DNA of 64,000 nt from Sphingomonas sediminicola (GTDB lineage: Bacteria > Pseudomonadota > Alphaproteobacteria > Sphingomonadales > Sphingomonadaceae): positions 1,178,001-1,242,000 of the forward strand of contig NZ_CP060782.1 in the NCBI RefSeq assembly GCF_014489515.1, read 5' to 3'. A program made the position numbers and the translations under genes. The notes beneath the pieces are model-generated. The model was not told the DNA's origin. It saw only the letters and a program-made list of their open reading frames with translations, and searched no databases. Below are positions 11,117-14,169 of the stretch, one piece after another (the first letter of the stretch is position 1; each line of letters begins with the position of its first letter).

Positions 11117-11145
11117 TTGTTCGGAAAATTCTTTACTTGAGGATA
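11117..11145 (+). promoter_or_regulatory. Putative promoter of the decarboxylase transcript
   Basis: TTGTTC at 11117-11122 and AGGATA at 11140-11145 are separated by 17 bases, a plausible housekeeping -35/-10 pair. It would start a leader of roughly 85 bases that includes the hairpin at 11178-11231. This is a pattern match only. Confidence 0.3.
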
Positions 11146-11177
11146 CCCCATACATATATCGCGCGTCCGCTGCCCAT

Positions 11178-11231
11178 GGGACTTCCAACCGCAAGGCAGC
11201 TCTCTCTGTCGAACTACCAGTTGGAGGTCCC
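11178..11231 (+). promoter_or_regulatory. Leader hairpin masking the decarboxylase ribosome site (candidate speF-type motif)
   Basis: GGGACTTCCAAC at 11178-11189 pairs with GTTGGAGGTCCC at 11220-11231: twelve base pairs with one U-G wobble and a 30-base loop. The 3' arm contains the GGAGG (11223-11227) that serves the TTG start at 11237, so folding would hide the ribosome site. Alphaproteobacterial ornithine decarboxylase genes are known to carry a conserved leader called the speF motif. This element sits in the matching place, but I cannot confirm the full consensus. Feedback by polyamines is an inference. Confidence 0.5.
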
Positions 11232-11236
11232 TTGAG

Positions 11237-12460
11237 TTGCACAAGCACCATAGCGCGCTGGGGCTAGCTGCCACCCCTCTCGGCAATCCAGTTGCCGATA
11301 TCGCAAATAGCCGACCCGCTCAGCCGGTGACGCTTCTCCGACCGCATGCTGCGCGCCGCGCGGCTCGCTTCTTCGTGGACAAGTTCCCGGGACGGTCGCT
11401 GTACGCTGTGAAGGCGAATCCGTCGCCGGAACTGCTCAAGATCCTCTGGGACGAGGGCGTGACTCACTATGACGTCGCGTCGATCGGCGAGGTGCGACTG
11501 GTTCACGAGACGCTGCCCGAGGCAGTGCTCTGCTTCATGCACCCGGTGAAGGCCGAGGAAGCCATTGCAGAGGCCTATTTCGGGCATGGCGTGAAGACCT
11601 TCAGCCTCGATACGCTCGAAGAGCTGGAAAAGATCGTTCGCGCGACCTCGAGGGATGGCGTTGCGCCGACCGATCTCAACCTGCTCGTTAGACTTCAAGT
11701 GAGCAACGAACACGCCAAGCTCAGTTTGGGAGCCAAGTTCGGCGCTGCGGCCGATGAGGTAAAGGCGCTTCTGTTCGCAGTTCGCCAGGCTGCCGATGCC
11801 TTGGGAATCTGCTTCCACGTCGGAAGCCAGGCAATGACTCCCTCGGCGTACGCCCAGGCGATGTCCCGAGTTCGCGACGCGATCGTCGAAGCAGCGGTTA
11901 CCGTCGACATCGTCGATGTTGGCGGCGGTTTTCCGTCGACCTACCCCGGCATGGAGCCTCCGCCCCTGGAGGCTTATTTCGAGGTCATCCACTCGGCGTT
12001 CGAAGCACTTCCGATCAGCTACTCGGCCGAATTGTGGTGCGAGCCGGGCCGTGCGCTTTGCGCCGAATATGCGAGCCTGCTCGTGCGTGTCGAAAAGCGC
12101 CGCGGCAGCGAACTGTACATCAACGACGGTGCTTATGGCGCCCTCTTCGATGCAGCGCACATCGGCTGGCGTTATCCCGTACGGTTGATCCGGGACGGCG
12201 GGTCCAACACACGCCCGATGGATTTTAGCTTCTACGGGCCGACCTGCGACGACCTCGATCACATGACGGGACCGTTCCAGCTTCCGGGCGATGTCGCCAA
12301 CGGCGATTACATCGAGATCGGAATGCTGGGCGCATACGGTTGCGCCATGCGCACCGCGTTCAACGGTTTCGGCGCCGAGCGCACCGAAATCGTCGACGAT
12401 GAGCCGATGGCGACGCTCTATGCGGGCGAGACCAAGCGCTCCAACGTCGTGACGCTGTAA
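11237..12460 (+). CDS. Type III PLP decarboxylase (ornithine/diamino acid decarboxylase)
   Basis: Fold-type III (alanine-racemase-like) PLP decarboxylase, 407 residues. The PLP lysine is in SLYAVKANPSPELL, followed by HYDVASIGEVRL, CFHVGSQ, IVDVGGGFPS, CEPGRAL and the NDGAYG segment; a C-terminal YGPTCDDLDHM motif carries the cysteine and aspartates expected at the active site. It probably turns ornithine into putrescine. The TTG at 11237 is supported by GGAGG nine bases upstream. A deoxyhypusine-synthase-like gene follows at 12581, so the pair probably makes putrescine and then a longer polyamine. The leader hairpin suggests translational control. Lysine or arginine as substrate is possible. 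Confidence 0.88.
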   Translation: MHKHHSALGLAATPLGNPVADIANSRPAQPVTLLRPHAARRAARFFVDKFPGRSLYAVKANPSPELLKILWDEGVTHYDVASIGEVRLVHETLPEAVLCFMHPVKAEEAIAEAYFGHGVKTFSLDTLEELEKIVRATSRDGVAPTDLNLLVRLQVSNEHAKLSLGAKFGAAADEVKALLFAVRQAADALGICFHVGSQAMTPSAYAQAMSRVRDAIVEAAVTVDIVDVGGGFPSTYPGMEPPPLEAYFEVIHSAFEALPISYSAELWCEPGRALCAEYASLLVRVEKRRGSELYINDGAYGALFDAAHIGWRYPVRLIRDGGSNTRPMDFSFYGPTCDDLDHMTGPFQLPGDVANGDYIEIGMLGAYGCAMRTAFNGFGAERTEIVDDEPMATLYAGETKRSNVVTL

Positions 12461-12580: not shown

Positions 12581-13663
12581 ATGACGACCGATACGCTGAA
12601 CAAGGTTCAGGACGCCGAGCGCATCAACGACACGCGCAAGTCCGAGCTTCTTTCGACGCCGATCGAGCATATCGACATCACCAAGTTCGATGCCCGCCCG
12701 ATCATCGATTCAATGGGCAAGATGAGCTTCACCAGCCGCGACCTGTCCCGCGCCACCGGCATCTACAACACGATGCTGGAGGACAAGGACTGCTCGATCA
12801 TCCTGGTGATCGCCGGATCGACCTCGGCCGGCGGCTGCATGGATCTCTATGCTGAGCTCGTGAAGTCCAATATGGTCGACGCGATCGTCGCCACCGGCGC
12901 CTCGATCGTCGACATGGATTTCTTCGAAGCACTTGGCCACAAGCACTACCAAGCCAATGAAATTCCTGACGATGATACGCTGCGCTCGCTCTACATCGAC
13001 CGCATCTACGACACCTACATCGACGAGCAGCAGCTACAGGATTGCGACTTCACCATCGGCAAGATCGCCGACAGCCTGGAGCCGCGCGCGTACTCCAGCC
13101 GCGCCTTCATCCGCGAGATGGGCAAGTGGCTGAGCGAGGGCAATGCCAAGAAGCAGGGCAGCCTCGTCCAGCTAGCCTACGAGCATGACGTGCCGATCTT
13201 TTGCCCGGCGTTCGTCGACAGCTCGGCCGGCTTCGGCCTTGTGAAGCACCAGGTCGACGCGATGAAACGCGGCGGCCACTATATGGTGCTCGACGCGATC
13301 GCGGACTTCCGCGAGCTCACCGATATCAAGATCAAGGCGGGCACGACCGGCCTGCTGATGATCGGCGGCGGCGTTCCCAAGAACTTCACCCAGGACACTG
13401 TCGTCTGCGCCGAAATCCTCGGTCACGACGATGTCGAGGTGCACAAGTACGCAGTGCAGATCACCGTCGCAGACGTCCGCGACGGTGCCTGCTCCTCCTC
13501 GACGCTTCAGGAAGCGGCGAGCTGGGGCAAGGTCTCGACCGCCATGGAGCAGATGGTATTCGCCGAAGCGACTAGTGTCCTTCCGCTGCTGGCGTCCGAC
13601 GCCTGGCACCGCGGAGCATGGCGTAATCGCGAGAAGCGCCGCTTCGCCAAGCTCTTCGACTAA
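12581..13663 (+). CDS. Deoxyhypusine synthase-like protein (probable homospermidine/spermidine synthase)
   Basis: A 360-residue member of the deoxyhypusine synthase family. Visible family parts are IVIAGSTSAGG-like NAD-binding sequence (VIAGSTSAGGCMD), IVATGASIVDMDF, FCPAFVDSSAGF, LMIGGGVPKNF and the catalytic lysine motif ASWGKV (lysine about residue 317), which matches the lysine that forms the enzyme-imine intermediate in eukaryotic DHS. Bacteria of this group lack eIF5A, so the likely role is transfer of an aminobutyl group to putrescine, giving homospermidine or spermidine. The ATG at 12581 is chosen because GGAG lies just upstream. It follows the decarboxylase gene by 120 bases, consistent with one polyamine pathway. 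The exact product is inferred. Confidence 0.85.
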   Translation: MTTDTLNKVQDAERINDTRKSELLSTPIEHIDITKFDARPIIDSMGKMSFTSRDLSRATGIYNTMLEDKDCSIILVIAGSTSAGGCMDLYAELVKSNMVDAIVATGASIVDMDFFEALGHKHYQANEIPDDDTLRSLYIDRIYDTYIDEQQLQDCDFTIGKIADSLEPRAYSSRAFIREMGKWLSEGNAKKQGSLVQLAYEHDVPIFCPAFVDSSAGFGLVKHQVDAMKRGGHYMVLDAIADFRELTDIKIKAGTTGLLMIGGGVPKNFTQDTVVCAEILGHDDVEVHKYAVQITVADVRDGACSSSTLQEAASWGKVSTAMEQMVFAEATSVLPLLASDAWHRGAWRNREKRRFAKLFD

Positions 13664-13723: not shown

Positions 13724-14169
13724 ATGGAATACAGCCCGATTCTCGTACCGGTGGTGGCGCTGGTCGCGTGGACCCTCGTGGTGATGGTCTGGATGGTCGT
13801 GACCCGCATCCCGGCAATGAGAAAGGCGGGGATAACGTTGGGCACAGCTCGCCGGGGTGGGCGCGGCGCGAACCTCGACGGAGTTCTACCTGACGAAGTC
13901 CAGTGGAAATCCCACAATTACATGCACCTGATGGAACAGCCGACGATCTTCTATGCGATCGCGCTGACCCTCGCACTGATGGGCATGGGCCACGGCATCA
14001 ACTACTGGCTCGCCTGGGTTATGTCGGCCTGCGCATCCTCCACAGCCTCATTCAGTCGACTGTGAACATCGTCCTCTACCGGTTCACGATATTCGCCTTG
14101 GCCTCATTGTGCCTGCTCGGCCTGACGGTGCACGCAGGCGCTCGCATACTTCACGATTGCCTGGGCTGA
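13724..14169 (+). CDS. MAPEG-family membrane protein, frame broken
   Basis: MAPEG proteins are small four-helix membrane enzymes related to glutathione transferases and leukotriene synthases. The start ATG at 13724 gives MEYSPILVPVVALVAW, then ARRGGRGANLDGVLPDEVQWK and the family-typical HNYMHLMEQPTIFYAIAL. The frame breaks at GGG 14016-14018. One extra G gives NYWLAWGYVGLRILHSLIQ, the conserved MAPEG core, then two more hydrophobic helices ending HDCLG. The restored protein has about 148 residues. It converges on the RNA methyltransferase gene 14 bases away. The substrate is unknown. Confidence 0.82.

Follow-up and report, generated by a model that had tools for sequence, protein, structure and literature searches.

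SpeFL and TnaC, peptides encoded by short leader ORFs of genes for the degradation or decarboxylation of amino acids, stall ribosomes and thereby control their own genes, while the SAM-II riboswitch is an H-type pseudoknot that hides the Shine-Dalgarno sequence. Another leader, the speF element, is located before COG0019 decarboxylase genes, as described in the text of PMC1273637. The closest described system is the odc1 (uORF-25-1) motif, for which 272 representatives were reported (PMC8632094; RNA Biol. 2021). In the text of that paper odc1 is presented as a hairpin whose right shoulder contains the ribosome site, a pseudoknot between the loop and the 5' end, two UUG codons with two bases between them and an 11-residue peptide, with an ornithine decarboxylase gene downstream and a pfam01124 (MAPEG) gene nearby. 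The same text reports that, in E. coli, both starts of the Sphingomonas echinoides copy were used, with approximately three-fold more expression from the uORF; that three mutants in strictly conserved nucleotides lowered main-start expression instead of raising it, two of the three having little effect on the uORF; and that the wild-type motif gave only modest expression in this host, with no ligand known. Our literature search on the odc1 motif found no description besides PMC8632094.

Here we analyse a leader of this kind in Sphingomonas sediminicola. It lies in a window (the whole stretch of DNA that was analysed) of 64,000 nucleotides, and all features given below are on the plus strand. 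A sequence-only reading of the window had proposed that a hairpin of 12 pairs, one of them a wobble, with a 30-base loop covers the ribosome site of a decarboxylase gene. This stem (P2, 11178-11231) is real: its 5' arm GGGACUUCCAAC (11178-11189), recognised by folding and covariation, pairs with the 3' arm GUUGGAGGUCCC (11220-11231), recognised by pairing and covariation. The geometry is as claimed, the wobble being a U.G pair, and the Shine-Dalgarno sequence GGAGG (11223-11227) is indeed contained in the 3' arm. The description was thus correct as far as it went, but it lacked a second helix crossing the stem, as well as the TTG at 11232 and the 11-codon ORF that begins there.

Excised alone, the stem folds with -23.8 kcal/mol, compared with -14.4 (sd 3.0) for its shuffles, of which 1 in 200 equalled it; folded with its flanks it is less striking (z -1.76; 10 of 200 shuffles equal). 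Six comparable stems, four of them nested in one place, are present on the plus strand of the window, and five dinucleotide shuffles of the window yielded 0, 1, 4, 6 and 7. Such stems are not rare, and neither their number nor the sequence alone is sufficient for significance. It is position and conservation that raise this stem above chance, since the same sequence and pairing recur ahead of the same gene family-wide.

The loop of the hairpin contains GGCAGC (11195-11200), the partner of GCUGCC (11169-11174) immediately 5' of the stem. The helix formed by these two segments, P1, crosses P2, which makes the whole an H-type pseudoknot with two linkers, L1 (CAU, 11175-11177) and L2 (CGCAA, 11190-11194), and a remaining part of the loop (11201-11219) that is variable in both length and sequence in the alignment of leaders. 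In 99 diverse sequences, P1, which is absent from the model behind the alignment and was therefore not favoured by it as the P2 pairs were, is paired in 97.5% of cells, a figure that under-counts losses of this helix because the sequences were selected for full-length matches; P1 is apparently lost in a few distant genera. L2 is nearly invariant in the same sequences (C 94 with 5 gaps, G 99, C 97, A 99, A 99). Three of the six P1 pairs have changed on both sides, with U-A replaced by A-U or C-G at one position and C-G by U-A at the next. For P1 and P2 together, both-side changes were found in 9 of 18 pairs against 2.5 in shuffles, and the observed covariation value was attained by 0 of 500 shuffles on any of five measures, although with this tool related sequences may beat shuffles without any structure. 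When the partners were slid by 1-3 columns, at most 56% of cells were paired, compared with 92.6% in register. Covariation among relatives, the check that the sequence-only reading had named for its stem, is present in P2, whose inner three pairs are poorly kept (62.7% of cells paired). Comparison across the family thus bears out that the ribosome site of the decarboxylase gene is covered by a leader structure that is conserved and covaries.

The alignment of 63 distinct leaders (A1), from which the covariance model R1 was built, contains 31 invariant columns, including GGG and GGUCCC at the ends of the stem, GCAAGGC in its loop and CCCA on its 5' side. In the CCCC run at 11173-11177 the window copy is one C short, the sole such row of the 63, so that its L1 lacks a C that all 62 other leaders have; this reflects either a real shortening or a homopolymer sequencing error. 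Four other leaders of the same gene (L131, L142, L144 and L145) have a 5' end like CCCCUG...CAGGGG. Such an end could pair with the 5' arm of P2, freeing the ribosome site, and a changed switch design is possible in these distant genera. A third helix, GCUGCCCCA with UGGGGCUAGC within the gene, was suspected from the conserved CGCGCTGGGGCTAG. It was set aside because a base that would be paired varies freely (column 32) and because the other half of the family is without this segment yet keeps P1. Upstream of the structure, TTTACT (11132-11137), 17 bases and TATATC (11155-11160) form a probable promoter (11132-11160), suggested by a TTTAC...CATATAT pattern kept in most of the leaders inspected; a scan with promoter consensus sequences found no promoter. 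Transcription would then start at about 11166-11168.

The stem is followed directly by UUGAGUUG (11232-11239), and the Shine-Dalgarno sequence hidden in it is common to two starts, TTG 11232 and TTG 11237. The first opens a uORF of 11 codons (11232-11267; MSCTSTIARWG) that overlaps the start region of the decarboxylase gene in a different frame and ends with TAG at 11265-11267. We compared 191 loci (different genomes, as judged by eye), omitting L158 (a partial match to the model) and L159 and L162 (no match). The uORF has exactly 11 codons in 188 of them, the window included, and 9, 16 or 48 in the others; its part beyond the third codon lies outside R1. In nearly all loci its stop is found 28 bases beyond the enzyme start. 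The start pairs (uORF/enzyme) were TTG/TTG in 182 loci, GTG/TTG in five and ATG/ATG in four, counts that lean to TTG, since the locus pattern demanded a TTG main start and a TTG or GTG uORF start, and since R1 spans both starts. Wherever any start is ATG, both are. The uORF stops with TAG in 180 loci, TAA in eight and TGA in three, while 35 long ORFs of the window end with TGA (15), TAG (13) and TAA (7). A TAG at this point requires CTA or GTA in the enzyme frame, codons that account for 3.4% of leucine (CTA) and 6.7% of valine (GTA) codons in the same 35 ORFs. A leader peptide starting from ATG 11176-11178 (MGLPTARQL...) was also considered and rejected; its end frame differs, as read by eye, among close relatives, and in some leaders (e.g. 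L052, L055, L068) the ATG is replaced by CCCCAA or CCCCAG.

The main ORF (11237-12460, TTG start, 407 aa) encodes an ornithine/lysine decarboxylase-type enzyme (Pfam PF02784 and PF00278). Its nearest solved structures are lysine/ornithine decarboxylases, no NCBIfam model scored above cut-off, and the substrate is probably ornithine. The next gene (12581-13663), possibly in the same operon, is deoxyhypusine-synthase-like (PF01916), and its product scores above the cut-off of NF002699, the NCBIfam model for 1,9-bis(guanidino)-5-aza-nonane synthase, so plain homospermidine may not be the end product of the pathway, nor perhaps the signal. It is followed by a MAPEG-family gene (13724-14065; PF01124), a neighbour that is also listed for odc1 in the Figure 3 legend of PMC8632094.

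The leader is a member of the odc1 motif, since every feature named in the text of PMC8632094 is found here: the hairpin with the ribosome site in its 3' arm, the covarying pseudoknot helix from the 5' end to the hairpin loop, the two UUG codons two bases apart, the 11-residue uORF and, downstream, the decarboxylase gene, with ornithine as the presumed substrate. The earlier proposal of a speF-type element, plausible yet wrong, is hereby corrected. The search of the leader with the Rfam speF model, suggested along with that proposal, gave no match to RF00518 at E up to 10, and none was found in the whole genome. With the same model, speF was detected in 11 of 289 genomes of the class, nine of them above the family cut-off. 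More generally, no Rfam 15 family reached its gathering score in the window or in five other leaders, and there was no plausible match to the window leader at E up to 10. A diverged speF element would share with this leader the bacterial class and the position 5' of a COG0019-type decarboxylase gene of a polyamine pathway (judged here from PF02784), which is where speF likewise occurs in the text of PMC1273637. We regard this identity as barely credible and rejected it: the model is silent despite a working control, the core hairpin and the GAAGAGGCACACC-type sequence of speF are absent when compared by eye, the fold is another one, and the leader is short (about 70 bases, versus a construct of -400 to +3 in that paper). 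In all three speF loci scanned (L071, L076 and L078), the ar45 sRNA (Rfam RF02347) was found 8 bases upstream of speF, and ten speF flanks (L072-L081) end in a similar AGCAACGACG...GGGCTTTTT stretch. The ar45 RNA may correspond to the 5' portion of a speF leader that ended early.

Throughout almost all of the family as sampled, the element and the decarboxylase gene occur together. Matches to the decarboxylase were found in 136 of 149 relatives, and a leader was located by pattern at 68 of the first 70 loci; as for the other two, the contig of L005 ends 8 bases 5' of the gene, and L065 is included below under the name L141. R1 matches 280 of 298 sampled genomes of the family, once in each, in 94 of 96 genera. 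Its matches in a sample of the class (5 of 385) are all in the same family, as is each listed match in a sample of the order (110 of 196). Among the 18 unmatched genomes of the family, five (genus g324) are without a homologue above 31% identity, two are incomplete and without a homologue, one has a fragment only, and the remaining ten have a homologue at 64-77% identity; in these ten, R1 gave seven full or near-full matches, one match cut by a contig end and two none. Of the seven, the match was strong at L167, reached E 0.0001 to 0.002 at L161, L163, L165 and L166, and was weak at L164 (E 0.017) and L160 (E 0.056). Element and gene thus go together, some copies having diverged. A pattern scan of named genomes returned at least 120 leader stretches, mostly from Sphingomonas, Novosphingobium, Sphingopyxis, Erythrobacter and their relatives, with a few labelled just Proteobacteria or similar. 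In genus g324, all five sampled genomes (G489, G555, G607, G647 and G682) are without the element and without a close decarboxylase homologue.

Two regimes of the uORF can be distinguished in the family. Defining a group by the peptide end RWG is circular, and the test was therefore redone with loci chosen by enzyme residues only. At the 115 loci (67 distinct uORFs) where the enzyme has ALG at residues 7-9, the uORF ends with RWG in 111 (63 distinct). The enzyme wobble bases hardly vary at this end (66, 64, 65 and 67 of 67), while the last wobble base of the uORF varies (44 C, 13 G, 9 T, 1 A). This pattern points to selection on RWG at the peptide level; an RNA-level constraint could instead account for the fixed bases at the uORF end, where free variation is confined to one of the last twelve bases. 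At the 62 loci (59 distinct) where the enzyme has DA at residues 6-7, RWG is never found, the ends are varied and the enzyme wobble bases vary at the overlap with the uORF end, and the uORF persists at the same length. The enzyme wobble positions of the wider non-RWG group have a mean entropy of 1.23 bits, versus 0.94 and 0.85. One half of the family thus keeps the peptide end RWG-stop, the other mainly the length of the uORF. In a tree of enzyme N-termini that includes the overlapping residues, a deep branch separates 67 rows, 60 with RWG, from 68 with none. When the overlapping residues are left out, this branch is weak and the RWG label is still clustered (8 changes versus 44 in shuffles); both trees, resting on 85 and 73 columns, are poorly resolved. 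The best topology of the second implies three changes to ATG starts, of which well-supported branches force only one. The structure, its covariation, the conservation of the uORF and the distribution of the element are established by these comparisons.

The explanation that we favour, with a probability of roughly 0.6, is an odc1 pseudoknot gate combined with a competing uORF at a shared Shine-Dalgarno sequence. A short leader RNA, beginning at about the transcription start, would fold into the H-type pseudoknot with P1 crossing P2, and the 3' arm of P2 would bury the Shine-Dalgarno sequence. This single site would feed two overlapping starts five bases apart, those of the 11-codon uORF and of the decarboxylase, so that an entering ribosome would translate one or the other. 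The pseudoknot, in which CGCAA is nearly invariant, may restrict access and also bias the choice of start, the uORF acting as a competing sink that diverts a share of ribosomes from the enzyme. Where the uORF ends in RWG-stop, in one half of the family, slow termination or arrest is probably an additional effect. A polyamine would be the most likely signal, feeding back on the first step of its own synthesis, as the decarboxylase and the adjoining deoxyhypusine-synthase-like gene suggest. From these data we infer competition as the purpose, the signal and the peptide effect alike. Tentatively, the element might be seen as a start-site splitter, which sets how large a share of ribosomes goes to a fixed-length decoy ORF and how large a share to the enzyme. 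It is possible, if doubtful, that selection would then keep the geometry, i.e. one Shine-Dalgarno sequence, two starts matched in strength at a spacing of five bases and a stop at codon 12. With similarly low confidence, the RWG-stop effect could be specific to one half of the family, having arisen there or disappeared from the other, and the paired ATG starts might, as a speculative suggestion, be a trace of selection on the start ratio.

The other mechanisms considered differ in the role that they assign to the uORF. In a plain metabolite riboswitch it would be secondary: a polyamine would bind the pseudoknot, lock P2 and shut both starts. The conserved loop, the pseudoknot covering the Shine-Dalgarno sequence and the polyamine genes downstream fit such a device, which is one possibility raised by the motif's authors in the text of PMC8632094. 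We nevertheless consider it unlikely, because the mutants in conserved nucleotides reported there hit the two starts differently and because a plain gate would not need a uORF whose length is kept in 188 of 191 loci. These mutants, together with the fixed uORF, also speak against a hairpin that is simply on or off, and the statement of the sequence-only reading that folded means no translation is too simple. An arrest peptide, whose end would stall the ribosome on a small molecule and so block the enzyme start, agrees with RWG being present in 111 of the 115 loci picked by enzyme residues alone, but seems improbable given the 62 DA loci, where varied ends accompany a uORF of the same length. 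In translational coupling, ribosomes that terminate step back to a nearby start. Applied to this locus, translation of the uORF would open P2 and ribosomes ending at 11265 would step back to 11237, so that the uORF would aid expression of the enzyme. Although the nearly constant distance of 28 bases from the enzyme start to the uORF end suits this model, one Shine-Dalgarno sequence already serves both starts, and start-codon mutants abolished expression in their own frame (PMC8632094, in whose text this is reported in general terms only); we therefore judge coupling very improbable. For the favoured gate with a competing uORF, the two halves of the family allow peptide and geometry to be tested separately, and the paired start-codon changes constitute a natural experiment.

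The leader shares its architecture with SAM-II, in that the second helix of a pseudoknot holds the ribosome site, but it has two starts instead of one and no Rfam match. Like SpeFL and TnaC, it carries a short ORF ahead of a decarboxylating gene, although this ORF, unlike theirs, shares its Shine-Dalgarno sequence with the enzyme and overlaps the enzyme start. The closest likeness is with odc1, from which the window copy differs in lacking one C of the linker. In addition, most peptide positions are conserved according to the text of PMC8632094, whereas half of the family studied here is without the RWG end, and ATG/ATG starts, unlike the UUG pair given there, occur at four loci. The window copy itself is another member of a motif already described in PMC8632094; the text of that paper contains neither the division of the uORFs into two regimes nor the matched ATG pairs nor a census of the family.
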